A stretch of DNA of 64,000 bases. Origin: Agreia sp. COWG. Lineage in GTDB: Bacteria > Actinomycetota > Actinomycetes > Actinomycetales > Microbacteriaceae. Shown here one piece after another: positions 43,953-62,412 of the stretch (position 1 is the stretch's first letter; the number at the start of each line of letters is the position of its first letter). A program made the position numbers and the translations under genes. Location: assembly GCF_904528075.1 (NCBI RefSeq), contig NZ_LR882035.1, positions 744,001 to 808,000 on the forward strand. Direction: 5' to 3'. Below the pieces are notes generated by a model, which was not told where the DNA came from, did not search any database, and saw only the letters and a list, made by a program, of their open reading frames with translations.

Positions 43953-44453
43953 ATGCCCGAACACATGCCGCTCGTCGGTGTCGTCATGGGGTCTGACTCA
44001 GACTTCTCCGTGATGGCCGCCGCTGTCGACGTCCTCAAGGACTTCGGCGTCTCCCACGAGGTCGAGGTCGTATCGGCCCATCGCACCCCCGAGAAGATGA
44101 TCGAATACGGGCGCTCCGCCAGGGATCGCGGACTCAAGGTCATCATCGCCGGTGCCGGCGGCGCCGCACACCTGCCAGGAATGCTCGCAGCCGTCACGAC
44201 CCTCCCCGTCATCGGCGTGCCCGTACCCCTCGCCCGCCTCGACGGCCTGGACTCGCTGCTGTCCATCGTGCAGATGCCCGCGGGCATCCCCGTCGCCACC
44301 GTGTCGATCGGCGGCGCGACGAACGCCGGGCTTCTGGCCGTCGGCATCCTGTCGACGTTCGACGAGATCCTCGCGGGCAAGCTCGGTGACTACAGGGAGA
44401 GCCTCACGACGCTCGTCGAGAAGAAGAATCAGGATCTGAAGTCGAGATTATGA
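43953..44453 (+). CDS. purE: N5-carboxyaminoimidazole ribonucleotide mutase
   Basis: 166 residues, class I Pur[15 protein letters not shown] carries the active-site [14 protein letters not shown] the catalytic His, and [14 protein letters not shown] the third signature. It converts N5-CAIR to CAIR. Its stop overlaps the LCP gene start as ATGA, so the two are translationally coupled despite unrelated functions. Confidence 0.96.
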
Positions 44454-45965: not shown

Positions 45966-47477
45966 ATGTTGCAAGACCAGGCCGTGCGCCGACGCCCTCT
46001 ATTCGTGTTCGTCATATCGTGGCTCTCGCTCGCTGTCATGGCGATCCTCTGGGCCGTCACCTCGCCCATCGGTGCGAGCATGGACGAGCCCTCGCACTAC
46101 ATCAAGGCTGCGTCTGTCGTGCGCGGCCAGCTGGTGGGTGAGCCCGGAGCTCGCGCCCAGGATCGGGTCGTGACGGTTCCCGAGACGGTGGCCCTGACGT
46201 TCAACGTGCACTGCCTGGCATTTCGCGCCGACGTGACAGCAGACTGCATCCAGCCCTTCGGCTCAGCCTCCAAAGATGTCGAGGTCACCACAGCCGCCGG
46301 ACTGTACAACCCCACCTACTACGTTCTTGTCGGCTGGCCGTCTCTTCTCGATGTCGGAGGGTCGGCGTTGTACTTCATGCGTTTTGCCAGTGCCATCCTC
46401 TGCTCGCTCTTCTTCGCGATCAGCATCACCTTCCTCTCGAGGCTGCCCAGGCCGACCCTGCCGGTCCTCGCCGCAATTGCTGTCATCACCCCGACGACGG
46501 TGTTTCTCAGCGGCTCGGTCAACCCGAACGCATTCGAGATCGCAACGACGGCGGCGTTCTTCGCCGGTCTCCTCTACGCGGTATCGACTGTGCACACCAG
46601 ATCGTCTCGTCTCTGGACCGCAGCAGCTTTGGCGGTCTCTGGCGCCTTGCTCGCCCACGCTCGGGGGTTGTCGATGCTGTGGCTCGGTATCGCGGTGGTC
46701 GTCGTCGCGATCTCGGTGGGTGTCGGCCATTTCGTGAGGGTGATGGTGCGACCTCCCTTCGTGATCGCGGTGGCGCTGGTCACCGTGTCGCTGGTGCTGG
46801 CCGGCATATGGACACTCAAGACGAATTCACTTCCGGCCGTGGGCGAATATCCCGGAGCCGGGTCGACATTCGGAGAGGGCTTTCTCACAATGCTGTCGTC
46901 GACCGTCGACTACATGCGACAGGCCGTCGGGGTGTTCGGCTGGCTAGACTCCTTCGCCCCCACGTGGGTGCTGGTCATGTATTACGCGCTCCTCTGCGTC
47001 GTCGTGGTCTACGGGCTGTTGTTCGCACGGCCATCGAGATCGTGGGCGGCGCTGTGGGTCGCGCTGGCATCGTTCTTGTTCGTGCCACCCCTCGTGCAGG
47101 CGTCGACGGTCACCGTCTCGGGTTATGTCTGGCAGGGCCGGTACACGTTGCCGTTGATCGTCATTCTGGTGGTCATGGCTGCGGTGGTCGGATCCACGCG
47201 GTTCGCTGAGCTGCCGTGGCGCGATGCCAAACGGGTCGTCATCTTCGTTCTCGTGGTCACCTCCCTGGGGCAGTTGGTCTCGGCCGTGACGAACCTCAAG
47301 CGATACGTCGTCGGCGCCTCTGCCAGCTGGGGCGAGTACTTTTCGGCGCCTCGCTGGAGCCCGCCGTTCTTCAACGCACCCGCGTGGTTCGTCGTCTGTG
47401 GGATCGTTGTAGTCATGTACTTGGGGGCAGGACTCGCGGTGACACTTCTTCGAGACAAGAAGAAGGTGACCGCATGA
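45966..47477 (+). CDS. DUF2142 family polytopic membrane protein, copy 1
   Basis: 503 residues with about eleven membrane helices. After helix 1 an outer loop has SPIGASMDEPSHYIKAASVV (D40, E41, H44), followed by an extracytoplasmic region with YNPTYYVLVGWPSL and later SVNPNAFEIATTAAF and YVWQGRYTLP. Two paralogues share these motifs (54401-55969 and 59733-61262). Family function is unknown. The acidic residue pair in the first outer loop and the overall topology resemble GT-C glycosyltransferases that use polyprenyl-phosphate sugars, which is my inference. Its stop overlaps the next gene, a GtrA protein (ATGA), supporting a link to lipid-linked sugars. Confidence 0.85.
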   Translation: MLQDQAVRRRPLFVFVISWLSLAVMAILWAVTSPIGASMDEPSHYIKAASVVRGQLVGEPGARAQDRVVTVPETVALTFNVHCLAFRADVTADCIQPFGSASKDVEVTTAAGLYNPTYYVLVGWPSLLDVGGSALYFMRFASAILCSLFFAISITFLSRLPRPTLPVLAAIAVITPTTVFLSGSVNPNAFEIATTAAFFAGLLYAVSTVHTRSSRLWTAAALAVSGALLAHARGLSMLWLGIAVVVVAISVGVGHFVRVMVRPPFVIAVALVTVSLVLAGIWTLKTNSLPAVGEYPGAGSTFGEGFLTMLSSTVDYMRQAVGVFGWLDSFAPTWVLVMYYALLCVVVVYGLLFARPSRSWAALWVALASFLFVPPLVQASTVTVSGYVWQGRYTLPLIVILVVMAAVVGSTRFAELPWRDAKRVVIFVLVVTSLGQLVSAVTNLKRYVVGASASWGEYFSAPRWSPPFFNAPAWFVVCGIVVVMYLGAGLAVTLLRDKKKVTA

Positions 47478-47911
47478 GCATCCTGACCAAATCGAACGTG
47501 ATGTCCGTGCTGGTGTACGGCCTCGTCGGCGGCACCGCATTCTTTATCGACCTCGGCACCCTCATCCTGTCCCGAGACGTGGCCGGACTCGTCCTCCCGG
47601 TCGCCACGGCGATCGCGCTCCTCGCTGGCCTCGTGGCGAGTTACCTCATGCAGCGGTTCCTGACATTTCGCCAGTCGCAGGTGACCTGGCACAGCCTGTG
47701 GAAGTACGCGCTGCTCGTCACCGCCAACTGGGGGGCGACTCTGCTCATCATCCACCTGGTCGAGACCGCGAGCGTCAACTATGTCTGGGGCAAGGTTCTT
47801 GCGACGGCCGTCATCACCGTCTGGAACTACTTCATCTACCGCTTCTGGATATTCCGGGGGACATCCGGGGCCGCTGCGGCCACCCCGTATCTGGACAATC
47901 CGGCCCGATAA
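47474..47911 (+). CDS. GtrA family membrane protein
   Basis: 145 residues and four helices. VLVYGLVGGTAFFIDLGTLIL is the GtrA entry, and VWNYFIYRFWIFRG closes the last helix as in the copy at 3.4 kb. GtrA proteins are believed to flip polyprenyl-phosphate-linked sugars. The ATG overlaps the DUF2142 stop by four bases. The pair probably forms one functional unit. Convergent with a GT4 gene. Confidence 0.88.
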   Translation: MSILTKSNVMSVLVYGLVGGTAFFIDLGTLILSRDVAGLVLPVATAIALLAGLVASYLMQRFLTFRQSQVTWHSLWKYALLVTANWGATLLIIHLVETASVNYVWGKVLATAVITVWNYFIYRFWIFRGTSGAAAATPYLDNPAR

Positions 47912-47921
47912 GCGGTTCAGC

Positions 47922-47935
47922 CCCCGGCTGCGGGG
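47922..47935. terminator. short GC hairpin between convergent genes
   Basis: CCCCG (47922-47926) and CGGGG (47931-47935) with a four-base loop in the 51-bp gap between gtrA and the minus-strand GT4 gene. Only five base pairs and no U-tract; weak support. Confidence 0.3.
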
Positions 47936-47962
47936 AGGGCGGCTGGAGCCGGAACCTCTGGG

Positions 47963-49105
47963 CTACAGATCAGCGTGCAACTGCCAGACCTTCTCGGCTG
48001 AATCACGCCAGCTGAAGGCCCGTGAGCGATCGTAACCGCCGACCGACAGCCGCTCGAAGAGCTCACCGTCGCCCAGGACGCGTGTGATCGCCTCTGCCAG
48101 ACGTTCGGGATAGCCTTCGGGGTCGTGACGCTCGACGGACACGCTCGCACCCGCGGTCACCTCGAGCAAAGCGGGCACGTCGGAGTGCACGACAGGGGTG
48201 CCGAAGTTCATCGCCTCGATGACCGGCAATCCGAAGCCCTCGGCGAGACTCGGGTAGACGAAGAGCGACGCTCGATCGAGCAGCAACGCGAGGTCGGAGT
48301 CGCTGACGAAACCCATGGCGCGCACCCGCTCGGGGGGGAGGCCGGCAGCGGCGGCCACGTGGGCGACGTCGACGTCGCCCCACCCGTCGGGGCCCGCGAT
48401 CAGGAGTGGCAACTCGGGCACGTTCGGCTGGGCGAGCGCCTTGATGAGCGGCGCCAGTCCTTTACGCGGTTCGAGGGTGCCGACGGTGAGCATGAACTCG
48501 TCGGGTAGGTCGAGTTCGGCGGCCCGCTCGTCCGCGTTGTGGGGCAGGACGAGTTTCGAGCTCACCGCACCCCCGATAACGCGGATCCGGTCACCGAAAT
48601 TCACGAATTCCTGCAGCTCGGCGGCGACGGCGTGGGTGGGTACGACGATGGCGTCGGCGTAGCGTCGGGCGCGTCTGGCGAGTCCCTTGTGCCAGGCGAC
48701 ACCGTGCTTCGTGAGGGTCTCCGGATGAGTCCACGGCACGACGTCGTGGATCGTGACGGCCACCTGTTCGCCGATGGAGTTCACGTGGTCGATCTTGCGC
48801 AAGGGTGCGAGGAGGCTCGTGGCGTGGATCATGCCGCGACCCTTGGCACCGGTCGCGAAACCGTGCTGCCACGCTCGTGCGAGCTCCCGGCGTGGAAGGC
48901 TCAACTGGGTCAGGCCCGACAGGCCCGGCAGCTTCGCCAGCGCCGCGCTCTGCTCTTCCGGCGACACCTTCGAGATCAGCCCCTCGACGTCGCATCCGCG
49001 CGGTCTCGTGGCGATCAACTCACGTGTCAGTTCTTCTGTATAGCGGCCGATTCCCCCCGGCACGGTCGCTACCATCTGATCAATGATCACCCTGAGGGTT
49101 GTCAT
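47963..49105 (-). CDS. GT4 glycosyltransferase
   Basis: 380 residues, GT-B fold. DQMVATVPGGIGRYTEELTREL opens the N-domain; TIHDVVPWTHPETLTKHGVAW is typical of GT4 enzymes acting on mannose or rhamnose donors; FMLTVGTLEPRKGLAPLIKAL and FVYPSLAEGFGLPVIEAMNFGTPVV carry the donor site and E-x7-E motif. The ATG at 49105 has GGAG five bases upstream and begins at conserved sequence, whereas the longer frame overlaps the tRNA-like element. Donor and linkage unknown. It is the first glycosyltransferase of the locus and is divergent from rmlA. Confidence 0.87.
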   Translation of the reverse strand: MTTLRVIIDQMVATVPGGIGRYTEELTRELIATRPRGCDVEGLISKVSPEEQSAALAKLPGLSGLTQLSLPRRELARAWQHGFATGAKGRGMIHATSLLAPLRKIDHVNSIGEQVAVTIHDVVPWTHPETLTKHGVAWHKGLARRARRYADAIVVPTHAVAAELQEFVNFGDRIRVIGGAVSSKLVLPHNADERAAELDLPDEFMLTVGTLEPRKGLAPLIKALAQPNVPELPLLIAGPDGWGDVDVAHVAAAAGLPPERVRAMGFVSDSDLALLLDRASLFVYPSLAEGFGLPVIEAMNFGTPVVHSDVPALLEVTAGASVSVERHDPEGYPERLAEAITRVLGDGELFERLSVGGYDRSRAFSWRDSAEKVWQLHADL

Positions 49106-49119
49106 CAGACTCCAAATAT

Positions 49120-49187
49120 TCCCGAATGCACTGCAGACCGCAGTGTGATGAACAGTCCAAACAAGGGTTCGAATCCCGCTCGGGACC
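49120..49187 (+). other. tRNA-like fold or decayed tRNA remnant
   Basis: In the 222-bp gap between the GT4 gene and rmlA, TCCCGA (49120-49125) pairs perfectly with TCGGGA (49180-49185) like an acceptor stem. Inside lie a 6-bp hairpin CACTGC-AGACC-GCAGTG (49129-49145) and GGG-TTCGAAT-CCC (49165-49177) with the loop sequence of a T-arm. The anticodon arm and most of the D-arm layout are missing, and the T-stem has only three pairs, so this is not a working tRNA gene. It may be a degenerate tRNA end left at an integration point or a chance structure in a promoter region. Confidence 0.35.
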
Positions 49188-49313
49188 TCGCAGCCCCACC
49201 TGCCAATGGCCAGTCCGAGCACGGGGCGGGGTGAACAAAACTAAGGATCCGTCCGTGGCCCCGACACTATCAGGGTCGTTCGATGCTTCCTGGGAGGACC
49301 CCCGGCGGGCCGG

Positions 49314-49319
49314 TAGACT
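49314..49319 (+). promoter_or_regulatory. -10 box TAGACT upstream of rmlA
   Basis: TAGACT, eight bases, then ATG at 49328; no ribosome site between. The spacing is one base longer than in the other leaderless genes here. Confidence 0.4.
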
Positions 49320-49327
49320 ACTCGACC

Positions 49328-50194
49328 ATGCGAGGAATCATTCTCGCCGGGGGCTCAGGCACCCGGCTCTGGCCCATCACGAAGGGCATCAGCAAGCAGC
49401 TGATGCCGATCTACGACAAGCCCATGATCTATTACCCCCTGTCGACGCTGATGATGGCGGGGATCAGCGAGATCCTCATCATCACGACACCCGAGTACAA
49501 CGAACAGTTCAAAGCTCTCCTCGGAGATGGATCCGACCTCGGGATCCGCCTTGAGTACGCGGTCCAGCCCTCCCCGGATGGTCTCGCCCAGGCATTCATC
49601 ATCGGTGAGGAGTTCATCGGCGACGAGAGTGTTGCTCTGGTTCTCGGTGACAACATCTTCCACGGAACCGGACTCGGCTCGAGCCTGAGAAACAACACGG
49701 ACTTCGATGGTGCCCTGATCTTCGCCTACCACGTGGCCAATCCCCGTTCCTACGGGGTCGTCGAATTCGACGAAGACAACGTGGCCGTCTCGATCGAGGA
49801 GAAGCCGACGACGCCGAAGAGCAACTACGCGGTTCCCGGACTCTACTTCTACGACAACTCGGTCGTCGCGATCGCCAAGACCATCGAGCCGAGCGCACGC
49901 GGGGAGCTCGAGATCTCGACGGTCAACGAGCGCTATCTGCATCAGGGCAACCTCAAGGTGCAGGTTCTCGACCGGGGAACGGCCTGGCTCGATACCGGCA
50001 CATTCGAATCCATGGTGCAGGCCACCGAATTCGTGCGCGTCGTCGAAGATCGCCAGGGATTCAAGATCGGCTGTATCGAGGAGATCGCCTGGCGCGCAGG
50101 CTGGATCGACGACGCGCAGCTGCGCGCTCTCGCGGCACCGCTCGTCAAGAGCGGCTATGGCGCCTACCTGAATACACTGCTCGACGCACGCTGA
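49328..50194 (+). CDS. rmlA: glucose-1-phosphate thymidylyltransferase
   Basis: 288 residues, the normal RmlA length. It makes dTDP-glucose, the first step to dTDP-L-rhamnose. [20 protein letters not shown] with the following [16 protein letters not shown] is the nucleotide-binding signature; [19 protein letters not shown] and [10 protein letters not shown] complete it. The other dTDP-rhamnose genes (rmlBCD) are not in the window. The presence of rmlA with several rhamnosyltransferase-like genes points to a rhamnose-containing cell-wall polymer. Confidence 0.96.
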
Positions 50195-50241
50195 CGCCGA
50201 CGCCGAGCCCGTCGCCGACGTCTGATCGATCGAGAATTCCC

Positions 50242-51474
50242 ATGAAGACCGTTCTTCTGCGCCTGTCCGGCTTCACGTTCTTTCCGCTGCTCTCTCTGAT
50301 CACCCCGCTCCTCCTTCTGCCTATCGTCGCCGGAATCGTCGGAGGAGACGGGGTATCGAGTGTGATCTCGGGGCAGTCCATCGGAACGTTCGCTGCGACC
50401 GCACTCATGTGGGGGTGGAACGTCGATGGCCCGGTGGCGATAGCCCGAGCGACGAACCCGAGCGACAGGGCGATCGTCTACCTGAGAAGTGTGCGCACCA
50501 GGATTGTGCTCCTCGTACTCGTTCTTCCCCTCGTCTCCGTGGTCGCGGCAGCCGTGGCCGTTCCCGCATTTCGCGTCGAGGCAGTCTCCATGGCCCTTGC
50601 GACCGCGCTCGTCGGCATGTCGCCGGCGTGGTTCTGCATCGGTCTCGGCCAGCCGAAGCTTCTCGCCCTCTACGACACGATTCCGCGGTTCGTCGCGACA
50701 CTGCTGTCGGTACCGTTGCTTCTGGCCACCCAGCAGGTGTGGAGCTATACGGTCGTCCTTGCCGGGGCCACGCTGGTGAGCCTCATCCTGTTCCATCGCC
50801 GATTCTCGGCAGGGGGCGTCTGGCTGCCGACTCCGTTGCGGGGCGCTCTTCGCGATCTTCGCGCCCAGGGCCACACCGCTGGCATCAGCATGGCGGGCAG
50901 CGCCTATGCGTCGACCCCGGCGCCGATCGCCACCGCGACGACGAGCCCGGCGGCATCCGGCAGCCTGTCGACGGCCGACACGCTCTACCGCTTCGGTCTC
51001 TTCACCGTCATAGCACTGGGCAACGCGTTCCAGAGCTGGACAATCGAGCCCGGCATCGCCAATAGGCGCCAGCGGCATGCCGTCGCCCTGTGGTCGCATG
51101 TGGGCCTCGGACTGGCCGGCCTCGTCATACTCCTCGCGGCCGGACCGTGGGTGAGCGAGCTGCTCTTCGCCGGCCAGGCGCGGGCGTCCGTGGAGGTCTG
51201 CCTCTACTACGGCATCGCGTTCTTCTTTCTCTCCGTCGGTACCCCGCTCATGCGCAACGTGCTCATCCCGGCCGGACGACAGCCCCTGGTCTTGAGGTGG
51301 ACCCTCGCGTCGGCCGTCCTGGGTATCGCGGCCATGCTCGTCGCCGGCCTCTCGGGACACGCGCCGCTGATCGCGCTCGGCATGGCATTGAGCGAGGCTG
51401 TACTGTGCGCCGGTCTCGCCGTCCCCGCTTTCCGGGAACTGCGACGGCACTCGGAGGAGGCTCATGTCGAGTGA
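50242..51474 (+). CDS. polysaccharide flippase, Wzx/O-antigen type
   Basis: 410 residues with about twelve hydrophobic helices and small basic cytoplasmic loops; GDGVSSVISGQSIGTFAATALMWGWNVDGPVAIARA is the conserved start of polysaccharide-synthesis MOP-superfamily transporters. It should export undecaprenyl-linked repeat units assembled by the adjacent cytoplasmic glycosyltransferases. No Wzy polymerase is recognisable in the window. The last 11 bases overlap the next gene. Confidence 0.83.
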   Translation: MKTVLLRLSGFTFFPLLSLITPLLLLPIVAGIVGGDGVSSVISGQSIGTFAATALMWGWNVDGPVAIARATNPSDRAIVYLRSVRTRIVLLVLVLPLVSVVAAAVAVPAFRVEAVSMALATALVGMSPAWFCIGLGQPKLLALYDTIPRFVATLLSVPLLLATQQVWSYTVVLAGATLVSLILFHRRFSAGGVWLPTPLRGALRDLRAQGHTAGISMAGSAYASTPAPIATATTSPAASGSLSTADTLYRFGLFTVIALGNAFQSWTIEPGIANRRQRHAVALWSHVGLGLAGLVILLAAGPWVSELLFAGQARASVEVCLYYGIAFFFLSVGTPLMRNVLIPAGRQPLVLRWTLASAVLGIAAMLVAGLSGHAPLIALGMALSEAVLCAGLAVPAFRELRRHSEEAHVE

Positions 51475-52393
51475 GTCCATGGCTCCGCTGCGAGTCGCGG
51501 CCATCGTCGCCGCTTATCACCCCGACGGCGAGCTCGTCGCCACCGTCGCCGGTCTCGTGGCCACCTTCGATCACGTCGTGGTCGTCGACGACGGGTCGCC
51601 GGCCGCATTCGCGAGTGTGCTCGATCGGATCGAGGGGGTGGGAGCCACCGTCGTCAGGCGCCCGACGAACGCGGGCATCGCCGCCACCTTGAACGCGGGC
51701 ATCAGCGAGGCGGATTCGCTGTGGCGCCCCGATTTCTTCGCCACCTTCGATCAGGATTCCGTGCCGGTTCACGACTATGCCGCCCGTGCGCTCGCCACCC
51801 ACCGTGAGGCGTCGAGGTCTGGGCGACGTGTCGGATTCGTCGTGGCGTCGTCATACAGCGGCCATCCGGTGCACACGAGGCGTTCGTCCGGAGCATTCGC
51901 CGAGGCCTTCGACCCCATGCAGTCCGGGTTCGTCGTTCCGCGGCACACCTTCGACAGCGTCGGTCGGTTCGAGCAGGGCCTCGTCATCGACGGAGTCGAC
52001 AGCGAGTTCACCGCCCGCGTGAGGGCGGCGGGGTTCGACGTGCTCGTGGGTGCCGGATGCGACATCCGGCATCAGCTCGGACGGCGCGACCCCGTGCGGC
52101 TGTTCGGCAGGGAGCTTCGGCTGTTCGGGCGCGAGATCAGCTACAACTACCACTCTCCTCAGCGGGTGTACTACATCGCTCGGAACGGCACGACACTGTC
52201 GCGGCGATACCTGCTCAAGGACCCGTCGTGGGTGCTGCGACGGATGGTCGAGGAGGCGAAGGCGCATGTGCTTCGGCTCGCGTTCAGCCCGAACCGCCGC
52301 GCGGTCGCCACGGCCATGATCGCCGGGTACCGAGACTCGTTCCGCGGGCGCTCCGGCGTCATCGAGCCGTCGGTGCTCCGTCGCCTCCGCTGA
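51464..52393 (+). CDS. GT2 glycosyltransferase, rhamnosyltransferase type
   Basis: 309 residues. VAAIVAAYHPDGELVATVAGL and VVVVDDGSP at the N-terminus, FFATFDQDSVPVHDYAA with the DQDS metal motif, and a C-terminal aromatic GREISYNYHSPQRVYYIARN match bacterial rhamnosyltransferases of the RfbF-like type. GGAGGAGG precedes the ATG at 51464, which overlaps the flippase stop. Donor probably dTDP-rhamnose; linkage unknown. Convergent with the wbbL-like gene across a symmetric hairpin. Confidence 0.85.
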   Translation: MSSESMAPLRVAAIVAAYHPDGELVATVAGLVATFDHVVVVDDGSPAAFASVLDRIEGVGATVVRRPTNAGIAATLNAGISEADSLWRPDFFATFDQDSVPVHDYAARALATHREASRSGRRVGFVVASSYSGHPVHTRRSSGAFAEAFDPMQSGFVVPRHTFDSVGRFEQGLVIDGVDSEFTARVRAAGFDVLVGAGCDIRHQLGRRDPVRLFGRELRLFGREISYNYHSPQRVYYIARNGTTLSRRYLLKDPSWVLRRMVEEAKAHVLRLAFSPNRRAVATAMIAGYRDSFRGRSGVIEPSVLRRLR

Positions 52394-52398
52394 TCCGC

Positions 52399-52426
52399 TG
52401 ACGCCTCGCCTCTCTCGGCGGCGTCA
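52399..52426. terminator. bidirectional hairpin between convergent glycosyltransferase genes
   Basis: TGACGCC (52399-52405) and GGCGTCA (52420-52426) form a seven-base-pair outer stem with a further GCC/GGC pair inside. It overlaps the stop codon of the minus-strand gene. No U-tract. Confidence 0.45.
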
Positions 52427-53281
52427 CCGGCGGGAAAATACGCGGGTCACGAGCAGCGCCCGGGCCCAGAGGCCGGCGCGCACGGCGAATCGTACGGGCG
52501 CCAGGTACCAGCCGCGGTATTTACGTGAGAGGAACCTGTAGGCGCTTTCGTGATGCACAACGACCATCCGGGTCGAATGCTCGTCTGTCGAGTGAGCGCC
52601 GGAGTGCATCACCGTCGCAGATGGTGCGTAACGACTTCGCCAGCCGGCCTTGCCGAGGCGATATCCCAGGTCGACGTCCTCGAAGTACATGAAGAAGCCG
52701 TCGTCGAAACCTCCGAGCTCGTCGAACGCCTTCCTTCTGAGAAGGAGGCACGAGCCCGAGAGCCAGCCCGCGTCGCGCTCGCGCGGCGGGCGTTCGTTGT
52801 CGCTGTGGTAACGCCTCGACCACGGGTTGGCCGGCCAGATGTTGGCGAAGAGCGCGTGGCCGAGTCCCATGCGCAGAGAGGGGATGGCCCGCGCAGAGGG
52901 ATACACCTCTCCGTCGGTTTCGACGAGCGGCCCGACAGCTCCGATTCGGTCGTCGCTCTCACCCACCCGAATGAGTTCGTCGATGGCTCCCGGGCGGATC
53001 TCGATATCGGGGTTGCTGATCAGCACCCACTCGATCGACGCCGGCAGGCTGCGCACGGCCGCGTTCATCGCGCCGCCGTAACCGAGGTTGCGCGGCATCG
53101 GCAGATAGGCGACACCATAACGGTCGGCCAGCTCGCGCACGCGGGACGCGGCATCCGGCCTGTTGTCGGCGACAACGACGGTGAGGGGGGCGCCACTCGC
53201 TGCGGGGAGCGAGGCCAAGAACCCGTCGAGAACCGCCTCTGAGCCGTAGCTGACGGTGACGACCCCCGCCTCGCCGCTCAC
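52424..53281 (-). CDS. wbbL: GT2 glycosyltransferase, WbbL-like rhamnosyltransferase
   Basis: 285 residues. GVVTVSYGSEAVLDGFLASL, VADNRPD, PRNLGYGGAMNAAV, LISNPDIEIRPGAI and GGFDDGFFMYFEDVDLGYRLGKAGW are the landmarks of the WbbL/rhamnosyltransferase family that adds rhamnose to polyprenyl-diphospho-GlcNAc as linker in actinobacterial cell walls. The gene overlaps the upstream GT4 by four bases (GTGA). The exact acceptor is inferred. It is the last gene of a six-gene minus-strand operon. Confidence 0.85.
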   Translation of the reverse strand: MSGEAGVVTVSYGSEAVLDGFLASLPAASGAPLTVVVADNRPDAASRVRELADRYGVAYLPMPRNLGYGGAMNAAVRSLPASIEWVLISNPDIEIRPGAIDELIRVGESDDRIGAVGPLVETDGEVYPSARAIPSLRMGLGHALFANIWPANPWSRRYHSDNERPPRERDAGWLSGSCLLLRRKAFDELGGFDDGFFMYFEDVDLGYRLGKAGWRSRYAPSATVMHSGAHSTDEHSTRMVVVHHESAYRFLSRKYRGWYLAPVRFAVRAGLWARALLVTRVFSRR

Positions 53282-54429
53282 GACCGGCTCCCGACAGCGG
53301 CGAAGGCACGAGCATAGATCGAGGCGCAGGCCCGCCAGGTGAACTCGGCACTGCGTTCGAGGCCGGCGCGGCCCATCTCGTCGCGACGGGGCCGGTCGTC
53401 GAGCAGCGACCTGATGGCTGCGGCGAGGGACGGTGCATCGGGCTCGGCGTAGGCGACAGCATCGCCGCCGACCTCTGGGATGGACAGCCGAGGCGTCGTC
53501 AGAACCGGGGCCCCACTCGACATGGCTTCGAGGACGGGCAAGCCGAACCCTTCTCCGAGGCTCGGGTAGACCACGAGTTGCGAACCGCCGAGGAAGGCGG
53601 ACAGCAGATCGAGCGGTAGATAACCTGCCTCGATGATCGGACGCTGCGCTACGGGCAACGAGGCGTTCGCGTCGAGTGCCTCGTTCGCGGCCTCATCCCA
53701 TCCCCGTGCGCCCGATAGCGCGAGCACGGGCGTGCCCGGGTCGGTCGCACGAAGAGTCGCGTGTGCCGCAATCAGGGCTGGGATGTTCTTGCGGGGTTCC
53801 ATCGTTCCGAGGAAGGCGATCCACGCTTGGGATGCTTCGAGTCCGAGAGTCTGCCTGACCGACTGCACGGCCGCCTCGGACGGCGGGGCGAATACCTCGG
53901 GGTCGACGCCGAGGTAGGCGACGTCGATCTGCGGCTGAGCCCGAGCGACGTAGCGTTGCACCTCGTCGGCCGTGGCCCTGCTGGCAGCGACGAGCCGATC
54001 CGCTCGGGCGTTCGCCCAGCGAATCCAGGTGCGGAAGAAGAGCCCCTTCACGCGAGAGTGTGCCTCGGGCGAACTGTAGAAGGTGGCGTCATGGAGGGTG
54101 ACCACCCGCTTCACCCGCGTGAACAGCGGAAAGGTGTAATGCGGCGAGTAGATGATCTCGGATCGCCGGCGTCGGGCGAGGGCCGGAAGGCCGGTCTGCT
54201 CCCAGACGAAGCGGACGGCCCGCGAAGAGACGAACCGGGGCGCGACGATGTAGGTGTGGCCGGGCGCGGCGGCGTGAAGGGCCGGGATGTCGGATCGTTT
54301 CGCGACGACATCGACGACCATGCCGTTCTGGTCTAGTCCGCCAAGGAGGCCCGTGATGAAGCGAGCCACACCACCATGGCTCGGCGGGATGGAGGTGGCG
54401 TCAAAGAGCACGTGGGGCGCTGGGCTCAC
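53278..54429 (-). CDS. GT4 glycosyltransferase
   Basis: 383 residues. VLFDATSIPPSHGGVARFITGLL, VVTLHDATFYSSPEAHSRVKGLFF, WIAFLGTMEPRKNIPALIAAH and VVYPSLGEGFGLPVLEAMSSGAPVL (E-x7-E) are typical of GT4 mannosyl- or rhamnosyltransferases. The GTG at 54429 lies inside the end of the upstream DUF2142 frame, with 29 bp overlap. Donor unknown. Confidence 0.86.
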   Translation of the reverse strand: MSPAPHVLFDATSIPPSHGGVARFITGLLGGLDQNGMVVDVVAKRSDIPALHAAAPGHTYIVAPRFVSSRAVRFVWEQTGLPALARRRRSEIIYSPHYTFPLFTRVKRVVTLHDATFYSSPEAHSRVKGLFFRTWIRWANARADRLVAASRATADEVQRYVARAQPQIDVAYLGVDPEVFAPPSEAAVQSVRQTLGLEASQAWIAFLGTMEPRKNIPALIAAHATLRATDPGTPVLALSGARGWDEAANEALDANASLPVAQRPIIEAGYLPLDLLSAFLGGSQLVVYPSLGEGFGLPVLEAMSSGAPVLTTPRLSIPEVGGDAVAYAEPDAPSLAAAIRSLLDDRPRRDEMGRAGLERSAEFTWRACASIYARAFAAVGSRS

Positions 54430-55969
54430 GATCGGCCTCCTTGTTCATCACGACGGATCGCCGGTCGAGCACGTGGAGTCTGAGGGCGAGCACAGCGAGA
54501 ATGAGCAACCCGGCTCCGAAGACGGCGAGCACGGCGAAGATGCCTCCCGGCGGCGTCCATTCGGGCGCGGTGACCATCAGCTTCCACGAACCCAGGCTGC
54601 CGACCGCATTGCGATGCAGGGCGCTGAGGAACGCGTACGCCTGGCCGAAGGCCCATCCGGCCACGCCCAGAACCGCCACTCGCGTGAGCGACGAGAAATC
54701 GGTACCGCGCTTCTCGAGGGTCAGCGAGATGACGGCCGCGAGCCCGAAGACGAACATGACGAGAGCGGGAAGCCCGTATCTGCCCTGCCAGATGTAGCCG
54801 CCTGTGGTGATGAACCCGGCCTGGATGACGGGAGGAAGGAAGAAGAACAGAAGAACCAGGAGCCCGGCGAAGACAGCCCGTCTTCCCCTCAGGAGGTAGG
54901 CACCGAGCAGCAGGAGCGACCCCATCAGGATCGTCCAGACGACGATGGTGGTGTCAGGAACCGGAGTGTCCATCCAGCCGAAATTGCCGATCATGTCGTC
55001 GCCGTTGGTGACGCTGAGCGTGATCATCTTCACGAAACCGAAGAGAGGGCTCTGGCCGACGTCGGGGAAGGCCTGCGCAACCGTGGGCGCCGCGGTTGCG
55101 GTCGCGGCGTCTTGGGCCAATCGGGTGCTGAGAGGATTCCATGCCACCGACACGACAGCCACGAGGGCGACGACGGCTGCACCGATGATCACTGCCCGCG
55201 CCCGGAGCAGCTCGACGATTCGCGAACGTGGCACCAGAACCAAAGGGAGGACGAGGGCCAACAGGATCCACAACGGCGAGATCGTGCGAGCGCCGAGCGC
55301 CAAAACCGAGGCGACGACGAGGATCGTCGCGCGCGAGCGCAACAGGTTCGGGTTCGGATGAGTGAGCAGTGTGATCATGGCGACGAAGGCCGTGAGGGTT
55401 CCGCTGATTTCGAAGGCGCTCGGGTTGAGCACACCGTTCACATAGACGACCATGGGGGTCATGGCCGTGAGCAGACCGACCAGAGGGATGAGCCGCCTCG
55501 TCCAGGTGCTCACGAGCATGAACGCCAGGGCCAAGATGCCGGATGCGACGATGCCCGAGACGAAACGCATCGCGTACAGGCCCGACGCATCGTCGAAGAT
55601 GAGCGAAGGCCAGCCGACCACGGCGTAGTAGACGGGGTTGTAGTAGCCGGCCGATGTCTGGGCCGACACGATCTCCCCGGCGTTCCCGGGGGTATCCGGT
55701 GCACAGCTCGCCGACACCGTCGGCTGGAAGTGGAAGCAGTTCTGCGATTCAGTGAACTGAACGTAGCGCGGCACGTCGACGATGTTGCCGTTGTCGCCCT
55801 GGGGCCCCACGAGCTGGCCTCTCACGACAGAGGCCGCCTTGACGAAGTGTGCGGGTTCGTCAGGCCCGGACCCGATGGGAGAGGCCATCGACCAGGCGAC
55901 GGCGAGCAGGGAGAGCGCAGCCCATGCGACGAAGAAGACCCTCCACGGAGACGGTCGAGCGCCGCTCAC
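54401..55969 (-). CDS. DUF2142 family polytopic membrane protein, copy 2
   Basis: 522 residues with about eleven membrane helices. It shares with copy 1 the first-loop motif SPIGSGPDEPAHFVKAASVV (D37, E38, H41), YYNPVYYAVVGWPSL, VLNPSAFEISGT and YIWQGRYGLP. The GTG at 55969 overlaps the stop of the DUF2304 gene (GTGA). In this operon it is preceded by DUF2304 and a polyprenyl-phosphate glycosyltransferase, so a role as an extracytoplasmic transferase using that lipid-linked sugar is inferred. Function is otherwise unknown. Confidence 0.83.
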   Translation of the reverse strand: MSGARPSPWRVFFVAWAALSLLAVAWSMASPIGSGPDEPAHFVKAASVVRGQLVGPQGDNGNIVDVPRYVQFTESQNCFHFQPTVSASCAPDTPGNAGEIVSAQTSAGYYNPVYYAVVGWPSLIFDDASGLYAMRFVSGIVASGILALAFMLVSTWTRRLIPLVGLLTAMTPMVVYVNGVLNPSAFEISGTLTAFVAMITLLTHPNPNLLRSRATILVVASVLALGARTISPLWILLALVLPLVLVPRSRIVELLRARAVIIGAAVVALVAVVSVAWNPLSTRLAQDAATATAAPTVAQAFPDVGQSPLFGFVKMITLSVTNGDDMIGNFGWMDTPVPDTTIVVWTILMGSLLLLGAYLLRGRRAVFAGLLVLLFFFLPPVIQAGFITTGGYIWQGRYGLPALVMFVFGLAAVISLTLEKRGTDFSSLTRVAVLGVAGWAFGQAYAFLSALHRNAVGSLGSWKLMVTAPEWTPPGGIFAVLAVFGAGLLILAVLALRLHVLDRRSVVMNKEADREPSAPRAL

Positions 55970-56331
55970 GACTCTTCCGTCCGCGGCTCCTCCAACTGCC
56001 GGATGCGCAGCTCTTGCAGCGAGACGGTCTCTGCGAGCACTCGCGTCTTGGTCTCGAGGTCGGTCAGCTCGCCGCTGTGCTGGATCGAGACGAAGAACAG
56101 CACCGCCATGCTCACGAAGAAGACGAGGTTGGTGGGAACTGCCACTCCGACGATGTTGGCCGCCCAGTCGAGTACCACGGGGAAGACGCCGACGATCAGA
56201 GCGAGTGTTCCGGCGAGAAGCCACCACACAGCGTGCCGCTCGCGCAGTCGACGCCGCCGCAGCATCTCGACGACGTAGACGAGAGTGAACAGTGCCGCTG
56301 CGACACCGAGAATGTAGGTACCGAGGCTCAT
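55966..56331 (-). CDS. DUF2304 family membrane protein
   Basis: 121 residues: three helices (LGTYILGVAAALFTLVYVVEMLR, VWWLLAGTLALIVGVFPVVLDWAANIVG, NLVFFVSMAVLFFVSIQHSGE) and a short charged coiled-coil-like tail (LETKTRVLAETVSLQELRIRQLEE). DUF2304 proteins are frequently found next to polyprenyl-phosphate glycosyltransferases. The ATG overlaps the preceding GT2 stop (ATGA), and the stop overlaps the DUF2142 start. The tail may bind the glycosyltransferase; that is inference. Confidence 0.85.
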   Translation of the reverse strand: MSLGTYILGVAAALFTLVYVVEMLRRRRLRERHAVWWLLAGTLALIVGVFPVVLDWAANIVGVAVPTNLVFFVSMAVLFFVSIQHSGELTDLETKTRVLAETVSLQELRIRQLEEPRTEES

Positions 56332-57065
56332 GAGGGGCGGGTCTCCTGGGGAAGAAGGGCCGGCGGCCGCAGAAGGGCGATGAAGAGGGCCATCACCGCG
56401 CGTCCCAGATAGATGGCTGCCTTGAACGGGTTGTGCGATGGTGTGCCGCCCGCGCGCGGTCGCATCGCCACACCCACCTGGGCGACGGTGAGATCTGCTC
56501 TGGTCGCGATCACGAGCGACTCGACGGTGTCTCCGAGGTATTCCGCCGGATAATGCGCGGCGAACAGCCGAACGGCTCGAGGGCCGCTCGCTCGGAATCC
56601 CGAGGTGGTGTCGGTCAGACGGGTTCGTGCGAGCTTGCTCAGGATGCCGGAAAGAAGCAGCATCGCCCACTTGCGAGGACCTGTGACCGCGTACTCTCCG
56701 GTGCCGGCGAAACGCGCTCCGAGAACGAGATCAGCGGATGCCAGTGCCTCGATCAGCTCCGGGAGGCCGGCGGGATCGTGCTGGCCATCGGAGTCGATCT
56801 GCACGACGTTGCGGTAGCCGCGTTCGAGGGCGAACTTGAACCCCACACGCATCGCCCCGCCGACGCCCAGATTGAAGGGAAGGCTGGTGACGGTCGCTCC
56901 GGCAGCCTGGGCTACCGCGGCGGTGCGGTCTGTCGAGCCGTCATTGACGACGAGGCAGGTGATCGTGGGGTAGGCCGCCAGGATCTCTCGAACGACGTCG
57001 CCGACGGCCTCTTCTTCATTGAATGCGGGCATCACGATAAGAGTGCCATCTAGGAGGCTGGGCAT
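56328..57065 (-). CDS. GT2 polyprenyl-phosphate glycosyltransferase (DPM1-like)
   Basis: 245 residues. LIVMPAFNEEEAVGDVVREIL, VVNDGSTDRTAAVAQAAGATV, LPFNLGVGGAMRVGFKFA, VVQIDSDGQHDPAGLPEL with the DSDGQH metal site, and LTDTTSGFRASGPRAV resemble dolichol-phosphate-mannose and undecaprenyl-phosphate-glucose synthases. No C-terminal membrane helices are present, unlike GtrB; the DUF2304 partner could supply membrane contact. ATG at 57065 follows TATGAT by six bases, suggesting a leaderless start. Sugar unknown. Confidence 0.88.
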   Translation of the reverse strand: MPSLLDGTLIVMPAFNEEEAVGDVVREILAAYPTITCLVVNDGSTDRTAAVAQAAGATVTSLPFNLGVGGAMRVGFKFALERGYRNVVQIDSDGQHDPAGLPELIEALASADLVLGARFAGTGEYAVTGPRKWAMLLLSGILSKLARTRLTDTTSGFRASGPRAVRLFAAHYPAEYLGDTVESLVIATRADLTVAQVGVAMRPRAGGTPSHNPFKAAIYLGRAVMALFIALLRPPALLPQETRPS

Positions 57066-57071
57066 CCGACA

Positions 57072-57077
57072 ATCATA
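57072..57077 (-). promoter_or_regulatory. -10 box TATGAT for the leaderless GT2 gene
   Basis: On the minus strand TATGAT, six bases (TGTCGG), then ATG at 57065, no ribosome site. It starts the GT2-DUF2304-DUF2142-GT4-wbbL operon. Confidence 0.5.
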
Positions 57078-57111
57078 AGGGGATGGCACGAACCGCAGCG
57101 GCCAGCCATGC

Positions 57112-58053
57112 TCAGCGGTGGAGGATCCGTTCGACGGAAGCCGGCATCCGGCCTCCCTGGCCGCGCACCCCCGCCTTCCAGCCGGCGACGACGAGTCGAA
57201 GGTGGCGCATCCGCCCGGGAACCAGGCAGAGAACGATGATCACGTGGCGCAGGTCGAGAAGAGTCTCGCGCACGGCCCACCGTCGGTACCGGGCGCCGAA
57301 GAGCCTGTTCAGCACGACCCTGTTGCGAGCGATGTAGTAGTAGCGGAACGTCGAGCTGCGCACGATGCTCACGGAGCGGCCTCGAAAGCGCACTGGTCTG
57401 CCGAACAGAGTCGGGCTGTAGCGGCTTCCGAGGGCGTGAGCCAGCAGTGTTCCGGGAGCCAGCACCACGGCCAATCCGGAATCTCTGAGCCGCATGAAGA
57501 ATTCCGTGTCGACAGCGTCGATGAACAGTTCTTCGCGGAACGGGCCGACCTCGTCGATGACGCTCATGGGGATGAGGAGTCCGGACTGGATCGGCTCGAC
57601 TCCGAGGACGACGCCTCCGACCTGCTTATCGACCCGCGAGGGCAGACCCTCCACCGAGTATGGGGCTACCGCGCCCACCTCGAGTCCGGCTGCTCGTGCC
57701 GATTCGAATGCATCGATGGCCCGCCGGACATAGTCCGGTTGGAGAACCGAGTCCTGATCGAGCGTCAGAATGAACTCGGGCGGGCTCGGCAGCGCGCGGG
57801 CGCGCTCGAGGCCCCGGTTCAAAGCGGCAGCGATCCCGGAGTTCGTCTCGAGGCTCTCGACCTCGCATCCGAGGGCGCGGCAGGCCTCGAAGTGATCCTG
57901 GGCCTTCTCTGTGCTGGCATCATCGACGACGACGACACCCGCCACCTGGCCGACGACGGATCGACATGCGTCCACGAGAGTCGAGCTCGGATTGAAGGCC
58001 GAGATGATCGCGACGACACGCGCGGTAGCTGCGGGCACATCGGCTGCAGTCAC
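57112..58053 (-). CDS. GT2 glycosyltransferase, rhamnosyltransferase type
   Basis: 313 residues. VVAIISAFNPSSTLVDACRSV, VVVVDDASTEKAQ, NSGIAAALNRGLERA, FILTLDQDSVLQPDYV (DQDS metal motif) and FIDAVDTEFFMRLRDSGL are typical of TIGR01556-type rhamnosyltransferases and resemble the gene at 51.5 kb. GTG at 58053 follows GAAGG by six bases. It ends 46 bp before the DPM1-like gene, with the intervening -10 box giving the latter its own promoter. Confidence 0.86.
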   Translation of the reverse strand: MTAADVPAATARVVAIISAFNPSSTLVDACRSVVGQVAGVVVVDDASTEKAQDHFEACRALGCEVESLETNSGIAAALNRGLERARALPSPPEFILTLDQDSVLQPDYVRRAIDAFESARAAGLEVGAVAPYSVEGLPSRVDKQVGGVVLGVEPIQSGLLIPMSVIDEVGPFREELFIDAVDTEFFMRLRDSGLAVVLAPGTLLAHALGSRYSPTLFGRPVRFRGRSVSIVRSSTFRYYYIARNRVVLNRLFGARYRRWAVRETLLDLRHVIIVLCLVPGRMRHLRLVVAGWKAGVRGQGGRMPASVERILHR

Positions 58054-58096
58054 ATCGAACCTTCGATCTCTGGTCGGGCGTCGCCGGGGTGGCGAA

Positions 58097-58102
58097 TACT
58101 AT
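58097..58102 (+). promoter_or_regulatory. -10 box TACTAT for the leaderless GT2 gene at 58109
   Basis: TACTAT, six bases (GGTGGC), then ATG at 58109; no ribosome site. Confidence 0.5.
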
Positions 58103-58108
58103 GGTGGC

Positions 58109-58849
58109 ATGGTCCGCGCGAGTGTGTGCATGGCAACGTACCGCGGTGAACCGTACGTGAAAGAACAGATCGATTCGATTCTGCGGCAGCTGGGCGACGA
58201 CGACGAACTCATCGTGGTCGACGATGCATCAGCCGATGCCACCGTGGCCGTGGTCCGGTCGATAGCAGATCCGCGCATCGTGCTCCGGGTGCATTCGACG
58301 AACGTCGGCTACGTCCGTACCTTCGAAGAGGCGATCGGGCATGCTCGCGGCGAGTTCATCTTTCTCTCCGACCAAGACGACGTCTGGAGCGACGGACGCC
58401 TCGATCTCATGCTTCACGCCCTCCAGACCCGCCTCGTCGTGGCCGGCAACTACTCGGTGTTGAACGAAGCGGGTCGGATGCCCGCACGGCGGCCTCTTCG
58501 ACGTGAGTACGACGGACGCACCGCGGCGAACATCGTCGCCGTCATGATCGGCTACAGGCCGTATTTCGGCTGCGCGATGGGATTCCGGCGAGAGCTGACG
58601 CGCGTTCTCCTGCCGTTCCCGGCCGTCTTCGTGGAGTCGCACGACCTCTGGCTCGCCCTCTCGGGCATTGCGCACAGGAGTGTCGCCCACCTGCCCGACG
58701 TCGTCGTAGAGCGCCGCCTGCACGAGTACAACGTGACCCCCCTCCGCTGGCGGCCGCTGCCGACGATTCTGCGTGCGAGGTTCATGTTGTTGCAGGGCTA
58801 CGTTCTTGCCCGGCACCGGGCGAGGCGGCTGTCCCGACCGCTCGGCTAG
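58109..58849 (+). CDS. GT2 glycosyltransferase, alpha-1,3-rhamnosyltransferase-like
   Basis: 246 residues. VCMATYRGEPYVKEQIDSILRQ, IVVDDASADATVAVV, and especially FIFLSDQDDVWSDGRLDLML match the RfbG-like family of bacterial rhamnosyltransferases. The chain is shorter than usual (about 300) with the missing part at the C-terminus. The ATG at 58109 begins exactly at the conserved N-terminus; the longer frame upstream is not supported. A single gene on the plus strand between two minus-strand operons. Confidence 0.83.
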   Translation: MVRASVCMATYRGEPYVKEQIDSILRQLGDDDELIVVDDASADATVAVVRSIADPRIVLRVHSTNVGYVRTFEEAIGHARGEFIFLSDQDDVWSDGRLDLMLHALQTRLVVAGNYSVLNEAGRMPARRPLRREYDGRTAANIVAVMIGYRPYFGCAMGFRRELTRVLLPFPAVFVESHDLWLALSGIAHRSVAHLPDVVVERRLHEYNVTPLRWRPLPTILRARFMLLQGYVLARHRARRLSRPLG

Positions 58850-59736
58850 TTCCAGCCGCCGAAGGCGTGGCGCAGCAGCGACTTCGCGCTTCTCGCATTT
58901 CTGGAGTGCAGAGCACCGGGTATCTCGCTGATCGCGTTCAGCCGGGAGGTTGCGTGGGTTCGCGCGATACGGGCTGCCTTCGTCCAGTGCAGGGAGTCGC
59001 ATTCGACCGCGGCTTCGTAGAACACGTCACGCTCTTCGGCGAATTTCGATCCATCGACGCCGCCCATCGACGAGACGCTGCCCGAATGACGACGGTAGGC
59101 GAACACCGTCTCGTCGTCGAGCACCAGGGACCCGCCGTCGAAGACGATCTGCAGGATCAGCGAGAGATCCTGCACGACGTGCCTGTCCTCGCGGAAGCGG
59201 AATTGGGCCAACCTCGACGATCTCCACGCCAGAGAGGGAAAGTAGCACCAGTTGCCTCGGAGCAGACTGGCCGCCAGCGGCTCGCCCGCATACAGGGACG
59301 GCCTCACACCGACGGGGCGGAGCATCGCCTTTATGCGGTCGCTGAGGGGCCACGCCGGAACGCTGTTCTCATCGATGACCGAGACGCCCGGTTGGATCAG
59401 GTCGCTCTGCGGGTACAGGGCCTGTAACTCCTTGACGCGGGAGACGTAGTTCGGCAGCATCAGGTCGTCGCAGCCGAAGATGACAGCGAACTCGTTCCTC
59501 AGATGGTCGACGCACGAGTTGAAGTTGCCGCTCACGCCCAGGTTGACCGCGTTGCGGTGGTATTCGATGCGGCTGTCGCCGAGCGAGGTGAGCCACGTGC
59601 CCGCGCTCTCGTCGGGGTAGAGGTCGTCGATGACGATCAGGCGCCAGTCGCCGTCCGACTGGTTCCTGACGCTCTCGACGGCGCGTTTGAAGTGGTCGAC
59701 ACGGCCGTAGAACGGCATCGCGATATCCAATGTCAC
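58846..59736 (-). CDS. GT2 glycosyltransferase
   Basis: 296 residues. LDIAMPFYGRVDHFKRAVESVRNQ, LIVIDDLYPDES, AVNLGVSGNFNSCVDHL and FAVIFGCDDLMLPNYVSRV (CDDLM metal motif) define the GT2 A-fold. The C-terminal part has WCYFPSLAWRSSRLAQFRF and HVVQDLSLILQIVFDGG. Donor and linkage are unknown. The GTG at 59736 overlaps the stop of the DUF2142 gene (GTGA). Convergent with and overlapping the end of the plus-strand GT2 by four bases. Confidence 0.83.
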   Translation of the reverse strand: MTLDIAMPFYGRVDHFKRAVESVRNQSDGDWRLIVIDDLYPDESAGTWLTSLGDSRIEYHRNAVNLGVSGNFNSCVDHLRNEFAVIFGCDDLMLPNYVSRVKELQALYPQSDLIQPGVSVIDENSVPAWPLSDRIKAMLRPVGVRPSLYAGEPLAASLLRGNWCYFPSLAWRSSRLAQFRFREDRHVVQDLSLILQIVFDGGSLVLDDETVFAYRRHSGSVSSMGGVDGSKFAEERDVFYEAAVECDSLHWTKAARIARTHATSRLNAISEIPGALHSRNARSAKSLLRHAFGGWN

Positions 59737-61262
59737 GACGAGACGCCCAATGAAGCGCGAGACGGGAGCGGCAGCGCGAGGCGCGAGGCGCCGAGCACGC
59801 TGTGGTATCTGAGCAGCAGGTGCACAGCCACGGCGAAGGCGAGGGATCCGATCACCCACACGAGCATGGGGGACACCGGCAGGCTCCACCACCACTCCAC
59901 GCCGTTATTCAAGTTCCACCCACCCATGTCGACACCTGTCAAGTAGCGTCGCATGTTTTCATGCAACGCGACGGCGTTGGCCACGATGATGGCCGCTTCG
60001 ACGACGTAGACCTGCACTCGTCCGAGCTCGGGTTCACGGGTGCGCATATGAAACAGTGCGACACCCCCGAACATGATGATGAGCGGCAGAACGTAGCGGG
60101 GCTGCACCCCGCTGCCCACGAGAGTGTTGCTTTGAACGAGGATGTACACCGGGATGGCTACGAGTGCTGCGGCGATGGTGCCGAGAACGACCAGCTTGCG
60201 CCACGTGGTGTGGGCGAGGCCGCCGAAGACGACGACCGCGAACGCCGCGAGGCTGCCGACCGAGACGATCCCGGGCATCCGGGTGTCGAACCAGCCGAGG
60301 GCCCACGAGCCGAATCCTCCGGCCCAGAGCAGAGGCACATCCAACAGGTTGCTGGTCAGCAGATAGCCGACATCTGTCGTCGCGACCGTGGTGTCCGTTC
60401 CCATGCCGGTCGAAGCGGTGATGACCTGGTTCGAGGTGAGGTAGAGGGCGAGGGATCCGACGACGAGGAGGGCCGGCAGGATCGTGAGCTTCCAGTACCC
60501 GAACCCCTTTCTGGCCGTGAGGGCCACGGCGACGACGGCTCCGAGCACCGCGTAGAGCGCAGAGTCAGCGCGCGCGCCGGCCCCGAGGGCTGCGGCGACG
60601 AGGGCGAGCATGCCCAACGCGATCCGCTGTCGGCCTCGGGTCTCGAAGTAGCCCACCAGGGCGATCCAGCCGATTCCGCCGGAGATCACGGCCCAGGAAC
60701 TGGGGTTGTTCGAGGCGATCAGGAACATTCCGAGCGGAACGATGCCGATGATCCACGACCACACCAGGGTGGAGCGTCGTCGCCGGGGGAGCAGCGCGTA
60801 GACGCCCACCCACATGGCGACGAAGATCACAATGCTCAGCAACCGCATGGCGATGACGGAGGCCTCGATATCGTCTGTCGCGAAGACGGCCATGACGGCG
60901 TAGTAGACGGGTGGGTAGAGGCCCGCGCTGTTCACCCGATTGGAGTCGACGAGGCTGGCCGAGGATGAGCGCGGCAGCGCATCCTGGCAGGCCGCACTCT
61001 CGGCCGGGGCGAACTTGTAGCACTCGGCGCCGTCCTTGATCAGCGCGGGCACCTTGCGTTCAGCTGCGGTCGTTCCCGCTTCGCAGAGGCCCTCCCGAAG
61101 TCCGAGGCCGCACCACGTGCTGGCGAGATGAAAGTCGTCGTCGGGGCTCGACCCCACGGGCGATGCCAGGGCCCAGCTCGACAGGCTGAGGAACATCAGC
61201 ACGGGCAGCACGATATAGAGGAGGAGGCGCGACGTGCCCGGGCGCGACTGCGTCTCAGTCAT
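59733..61262 (-). CDS. DUF2142 family polytopic membrane protein, copy 3
   Basis: 509 residues with about eleven helices. It is the most divergent copy: first-loop motif SPVGSSPDDDFHLASTWCG (D41-D43, H45) and then YPPVYYAVMAVFA, SNNPSSWAVISGG and GVQPRYVLPLIIM. Four cysteines in the first outer loop (about residues 51-92) could form disulfides. The start overlaps the stop of the upstream GT2 by eight bases, and the end overlaps the next GT2. Its cognate lipid-linked sugar synthase is not obvious. Confidence 0.82.
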   Translation of the reverse strand: MTETQSRPGTSRLLLYIVLPVLMFLSLSSWALASPVGSSPDDDFHLASTWCGLGLREGLCEAGTTAAERKVPALIKDGAECYKFAPAESAACQDALPRSSSASLVDSNRVNSAGLYPPVYYAVMAVFATDDIEASVIAMRLLSIVIFVAMWVGVYALLPRRRRSTLVWSWIIGIVPLGMFLIASNNPSSWAVISGGIGWIALVGYFETRGRQRIALGMLALVAAALGAGARADSALYAVLGAVVAVALTARKGFGYWKLTILPALLVVGSLALYLTSNQVITASTGMGTDTTVATTDVGYLLTSNLLDVPLLWAGGFGSWALGWFDTRMPGIVSVGSLAAFAVVVFGGLAHTTWRKLVVLGTIAAALVAIPVYILVQSNTLVGSGVQPRYVLPLIIMFGGVALFHMRTREPELGRVQVYVVEAAIIVANAVALHENMRRYLTGVDMGGWNLNNGVEWWWSLPVSPMLVWVIGSLAFAVAVHLLLRYHSVLGASRLALPLPSRASLGVSS

Positions 61263-62331: not shown

Positions 62332-62400
62332 GACGATTCCTCCGTCGTTCGGGTCAGAGACAGGTTACTAGCTGCGCGACGGTGCCGCGGAGGGGCCAAG

Positions 62401-62406
62401 TACCAT
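62401..62406 (+). promoter_or_regulatory. -10 box TACCAT for the leaderless WsaF-like gene
   Basis: TACCAT, six bases (GGCACG), then GTG at 62413; no ribosome site. Confidence 0.5.
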
Positions 62407-62412
62407 GGCACG

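Follow-up and report, generated by a model that had tools for sequence, protein, structure and literature searches.

Three DUF2142 membrane proteins as probable GT-C-type glycosyltransferases of a wall polysaccharide locus in Agreia sp. COWG

The stretch of DNA analyzed here, referred to as the window, comprises 64,000 nucleotides of Agreia sp. COWG (contig NZ_LR882035.1, positions 744,001 to 808,000), and it contains three genes for membrane proteins of the DUF2142 family, which is annotated as being of unknown function and whose members we propose are probably extracytoplasmic GT-C-type glycosyltransferases. Copy 1 (45966..47477, plus strand, 503 residues) and copy 2 (54401..55969, minus strand, 522 residues, with a GTG start) are predicted GT-C transferases that score 127.3 and 127.4 bits, respectively, with the Pfam model PF09913, and copy 3 (59733..61262, minus strand, 509 residues) belongs to another subfamily and scores 196.8 bits. 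All three exceed the curated Pfam cut-off of 30.1 bits, and a six-frame scan of the whole genome found only these three DUF2142 genes at E <= 0.001.

A preliminary description of this DNA had placed three such genes at these positions and reported that their products share several motifs; the open reading frames are indeed present, and an alignment of the three copies reproduces the motifs. The first-loop motif, SP(I/V)GxxxD(E/D) followed by H, reads SPIGASMDEPSH, SPIGSGPDEPAH, and SPVGSSPDDDFH in copies 1, 2, and 3, and contains the aspartates D40 (46083-46085), D37 (55859-55861), and D41 (61140-61142), respectively. In the same order, the copies contain a PxYY patch (YNPTYY, YNPVYY, and YPPVYY), an NPxxx(E/A)(I/V) motif (NPNAFEI, NPSAFEI, and NPSSWAV), and, on the C-terminal side, RYxLP (RYTLP, RYGLP, and RYVLP). 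Identity to copy 1 is 36% for copy 2 and 26% for copy 3, and the shared motifs are a matter of homology rather than chance. The three copies fall into three separately supported groups in a quick tree and are therefore not recent duplicates, and that explanation of their number was rejected. Copies 2 and 3 share 58-80% identity with named Agreia homologues. In Agreia pratensis, A. bicolorata, and Agreia sp. Leaf210, two tandem DUF2142 genes of the copy 2 type occupy the place of the single gene in the window.

Conservation was measured on 70 DUF2142 proteins, consisting of 67 from 60 regions of family and phylum genomes together with the three window copies; most of the weakest PF09913 places are absent from this sample and so the values describe the stronger members. 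D37, R135, P172, and R397 (copy 2 numbering) are invariant in all 70, while the residue following D37 is E in 45 and D in 23 (E/D in 68/70), Q395 is kept in 69 and H41 in 67, and the two positions of a Cys pair in loop 1 are kept in 59 and 60. Loss of the acidic pair in most family members, which would have spoken against the proposal, was hence not seen. Hydropathy analysis of two DUF2142 alignments predicts 12 helices and puts the D/E/H, NP, and Q-x-R-Y patches on the outside. The aspartate of the first loop, which does not vary, would be responsible for catalysis.

The predicted structure of copy 2 (mean predicted local distance difference test score, pLDDT, 94.3) matches the GT-C fold over ~340 residues, with ArnT, ALG12, PMT, and AftD structures among the 50 entries listed from a comparison with the top 1000 chains in the Foldseek ranking, and the same fold may be assigned to copies 1 and 3 through their homology to copy 2. 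The GT-C function put forward in the preliminary description is supported because the predicted fold is of the GT-C type and the acidic pair is kept; kinship to PMT proteins and the gene neighborhood, both discussed below, also favor it. As polytopic proteins that lack a named function and are encoded in a sugar cluster, DUF2142 proteins might instead move lipid-linked sugars, as flippases or transporters, and resemble GT-C enzymes in appearance only. We regard this as extremely improbable in view of the length of the fold match, the first outer loop with its D kept throughout and its E/D and H kept almost throughout, the outer Q-x-R-Y, and the GtrA gene with which copy 1 is already paired.

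A relationship to the PMT/ArnT-type GT-C_A proteins (PF02366, PF13231) is also seen at the level of sequence families. Two of the 70 proteins, L100 and L101, exceed the cut-offs of both DUF2142 and PMT_2 over overlapping stretches, and L100 matches PMT as well. Among 120 listed relatives of L100 (206 were found), 93, as counted by eye, contain PF09913 with PF13231 or PF02366, 19 contain DUF2142 only, 6 contain PMT types only, and 2 contain neither, and the database names of such relatives include glycosyltransferase family 39 and ArnT-like. As these dual matches show, the sequence spaces of the Pfam families overlap. A 37-row alignment that includes the window copies and six relatives annotated as PMT/PMT_2 only (P0245, P0340, P0348, P0349, P0355, and P0359) has the D, the H, two arginines, and one PxYY-patch proline in every row. 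By hhalign, DUF2142 aligned with 19 PMT_2 proteins at 96.5% (E 7.4e-10 over 186 columns, and E 7.6e-10 over 352 columns), compared to 13.5% over 25 columns with 20 Wzy_C proteins; a likeness to Wzy_C (PF04932) was not found in this comparison, and a Wzy-type reading of DUF2142 was dropped. Placement of DUF2142 in the PMT/ArnT-type GT-C superfamily is thus supported by the dual-domain proteins and the profile-profile alignments, and we assume that Pfam may already have the family in its GT-C clan. The subfamily represented by L100, L101, and the relatives P0241-P0360, which matches the DUF2142 and PMT/PMT_2 models together, is a large one.

DUF2142 proteins therefore resemble the PMT/ArnT-type enzymes in predicted fold, in the first-loop acidic residue, and through the dual-domain bridging proteins, but differ from them in forming their own Pfam family, in the loop 1 Cys pair, in the Q-x-R-Y patch, and in having no sequence relative in the PDB. 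A search of the PDB by sequence with two DUF2142 profiles gave nothing up to E 10, and neither did a search with the bridge protein alone find any match; the matches of a 28-member profile to TspO (E 0.0027) and to a major histocompatibility complex chain (E 0.26) were judged to be due to chance.

Copies 1 and 2 overlap a GtrA and a DUF2304 gene, respectively, as read from the DNA. The stop codon of copy 1 overlaps, in ATGA, the start of a gene for a 145-residue GtrA family protein (47474..47911, plus strand, PF04138 E 6.7e-19), a candidate polyprenyl-phosphate-sugar flippase. The start of copy 2 overlaps, in GTGA at 55969, the stop of a gene for a small membrane protein of the DUF2304 family (55966..56331, minus strand, 121 residues, PF10066 E 1.2e-23), whose own start overlaps, in ATGA at 56331, the stop of a DPM1-like GT2 gene (56328..57089, minus strand, 253 residues, PF00535 E 9.2e-22). 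Coupling of two copies to GtrA or DUF2304 genes, as first described, is borne out by these overlaps and by the Pfam assignments of both families. The earlier mention of a DPM1-like synthase in one of the operons stands as far as the GT2 family is concerned, while the role as polyprenyl-phosphate-sugar synthase is a predicted one, the top NCBIfam match being PpgS at 92.6 bits, far under its cut-off of 370. The DUF2304 protein is likely an activator or membrane partner of this GT2. It has a hydrophobic stretch at residues ~5-20 and a long one at ~41-81 that could hold two helices, so that three helices are compatible with its hydropathy, which does not separate the last two.

Copy 3 is located between two other GT2 genes. 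The stop of the upstream one (61255..62331, minus strand, PF00535 E 6.7e-25) falls within ATGACTGA at the copy 3 start, and the copy 3 stop overlaps, in GTGA at 59736, the start of the downstream one (58846..59736, minus strand, PF00535 E 2.2e-13). No flippase was recognized beside copies 2 and 3 among the neighboring genes scanned; GtrA overlaps copy 1. A 410-residue protein encoded at 50242-51474 (plus strand), which is hydrophobic-rich by eye, has no Pfam match, and gives a weak EpaQ-family hint, could be a missing flippase.

The remaining genes indicate what the acceptor might be. The window encodes RmlA, a glucose-1-phosphate thymidylyltransferase of the deoxythymidine diphosphate-rhamnose route (49283..50194, plus strand, TIGR01207 468.7 bits, cut-off 360.65), an LCP family glycopolymer-peptidoglycan transferase (44450..45808, plus strand, PF03816, with TIGR00350 over its cut-off), and a WsaF-like glycosyltransferase (62083-63645, plus strand, PF22772), the WsaF family being known from a rhamnose-containing S-layer glycan. 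Ten open reading frames were scanned in a 20-kilobase (kb) locus at contig positions 806001-826000, which begins 2 kb before the end of the window, and they encode an epimerase, two GT2, a Wzm-like permease, a Wzt_C ATPase, RgpF (E 2.4e-148), two acyltransferase-type proteins, and two CWB2 proteins. With RmlA, LCP, RgpF, Wzm/Wzt, and glycosyltransferase genes, the region fits a locus for a wall polysaccharide that probably contains rhamnose. It is conceivable that DUF2142 enzymes glycosylate proteins in the manner of PMT rather than a polysaccharide, as might be suggested by their profile kinship to PMT and PMT_2 and by the two CWB2 cell-wall-binding proteins encoded just beyond the window. 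Yet the surroundings consist of the polysaccharide genes described above, and the genome has four other PMT_2 matches elsewhere, and we consider this explanation to be very unlikely.

In described three- or four-component systems, a GT2, sometimes with a small membrane protein, makes a polyprenyl-phosphate sugar, a flippase turns it over, and a GT-C enzyme carries out the transfer on the outside (PMC8035078, PMC10821137, PMC11754754, PMC9671496, PMC3485146). The three DUF2142 copies may share one donor for different positions or may each have their own, as is the case for SccM and SccQ. The copy 2 gene order of GT2, DUF2304, and DUF2142 corresponds to this scheme minus the flippase, while copy 1 brings GtrA. 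The streptococcal GacI/GacJ/GacK/GacL and lactococcal WpsA/WpsB/WpsG/WpsJ systems likewise combine a GT2, a small membrane partner, and a GT-C enzyme for a rhamnose wall polysaccharide, GacL being listed with a PMT-2 domain (PMC8035078), and the RgpF-type and ABC exporter genes of the Agreia cluster add to the likeness. In contrast to these systems, Agreia is an actinobacterium, its GT-C component is DUF2142, DUF2304 is a putative GacJ counterpart, and no Wzx-type flippase was recognized among the genes scanned. The mycobacterial and corynebacterial PpgS, Rv3632, and Rv3779 are similar in that a GT2, for which PpgS is the top NCBIfam match in Agreia, is paired with a small membrane protein and accompanied by a transferase, a predicted one in Agreia, that uses a lipid-linked sugar for the wall polysaccharide. 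However, the acceptor there is arabinogalactan, the transferase gene lies apart from the synthase pair according to the gene numbers, and the Agreia GT2 is well under the PpgS cut-off.

Members of the same Pfam family are found in rhamnose wall polysaccharide loci of a different phylum, in Lactococcus, Pseudolactococcus, and Streptococcus thermophilus. These DUF2142 proteins of lactic acid bacteria have been assigned as candidate WpsJ-like GT-C transferases, which move whole side chains, or WpsI-like polymerases, and these assignments are predictions too (PMC12599335, PMC9746298). Hence the Agreia proteins might be GT-C-type polymerases or block transferases that link oligosaccharide repeats on their lipid carriers into a chain or add a complete side chain to a backbone, rather than transferring single sugars. 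Copy 3, between ordinary GT2 genes and away from the polyprenyl-phosphate-sugar synthase, would suit such a role, and the lactococcal GT2/small-partner pair WpsA/WpsB also begins a longer block. On the other hand, copy 2 overlaps the GT2/DUF2304 pair, and two Wzy_C genes are present ~17.5 to 19.3 kb beyond the window end, from a family with which DUF2142 does not align, so we view a polymerase or block-transfer role as rather unlikely. The actinobacterial "WpsJ" of PMC13390465 was set aside, as the name there refers to an O-antigen-ligase-like protein and not to DUF2142. The literature searched, mostly without subscription papers, yielded no experiments on a DUF2142 protein from an actinobacterium. 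The GT-C class is itself already known, and the Agreia copies would join it as an assignment of function.

We therefore consider it likely that the three DUF2142 proteins are polytopic GT-C_A (PMT/ArnT-like) transferases that act on the wall polymer of this locus. With the help of DUF2304, the GT2 at 56328-57089 would transfer a sugar from a nucleotide donor to polyprenyl phosphate on the inner face of the membrane, GtrA or another flippase would turn the lipid-linked sugar over to the outer face, and DUF2142 would move the sugar there onto the polymer, probably a rhamnose-containing polysaccharide with Wzm/Wzt as its exporter and LCP proteins attaching it to peptidoglycan. For a family so far annotated as unknown, this proposes a function that can be tested, candidate residues of the active site, and likely partners that make the donor. 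It also connects the decoration of wall polysaccharides in these actinobacteria with the streptococcal and mycobacterial systems, which have been studied more closely. Infection of Corynebacterium glutamicum by a phage is reported to require a wall modification system that looks related (PMC9671496). We would further entertain, as an improbable extension, that GT2, DUF2304, and DUF2142, the products of overlapping genes, assemble in the membrane into a single complex for synthesis, flipping, and transfer of the polyprenyl-phosphate sugar. No separate flippase would then be needed, as DUF2304 would guide the lipid across, and DUF2142 would represent a broad actinobacterial GT-C branch defined by this hand-over.

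Several results weigh against the kinship to PMT or limit the neighborhood argument. The window copies have no match to any PMT Pfam model, only 1 of the 28 members of a DUF2142 alignment matches PMT_2 (E 0.007), and in the quick tree a long distance separates the bridging proteins from the window copies. The Wzy_C control is not fully silent, since PMT_2 and Wzy_C gave 44.3% by hhalign. Among the 38 DUF2142-bearing genomes of the phylum sample, DUF2304 is present in 13, at a distance from DUF2142 of at most 2 kb in 3 genomes and at most 20 kb in 6, and the partnership is therefore not obligatory; GtrA is within 2 kb of DUF2142 in only 3 of the 38, the Agreia genome included, which is a weak association.

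At E <= 0.001, DUF2142 is present in 46/296 of the phylum genomes sampled and in 49/120 genomes of the family Microbacteriaceae, and Lactococcus lactis has a match among the 14 control genomes that made up the sampling outside Actinomycetota. Pfam scans of Microbacteriaceae found DUF2304 over its cut-off in 38 of the 48 genomes with DUF2142 over cut-off (49 having any match), versus 21 of the 65 scanned out of 71 without it (Fisher p 1.2e-6, a guide only because the genomes are related). The distance to DUF2142 is at most 700 bases for 14 of the 39 DUF2304 places in the family, at most 2 kb for 23, and at most 20 kb for 35, while 2 are on other contigs. The neighborhood argument thus holds across Microbacteriaceae and more weakly beyond.

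Two further gene pairs involve GtrA. Within the window, a second DPM1-like GT2 gene (2420-3193, minus strand; phmmer E 3e-21 against the GT2 at 56328) adjoins another GtrA gene (3187-3933, plus strand), possibly as a second donor-making pair. Elsewhere in the same genome, a GtrA reading frame overlaps a PMT_2 reading frame by 13 bases (L153:2322-4396), a pairing like that of copy 1.
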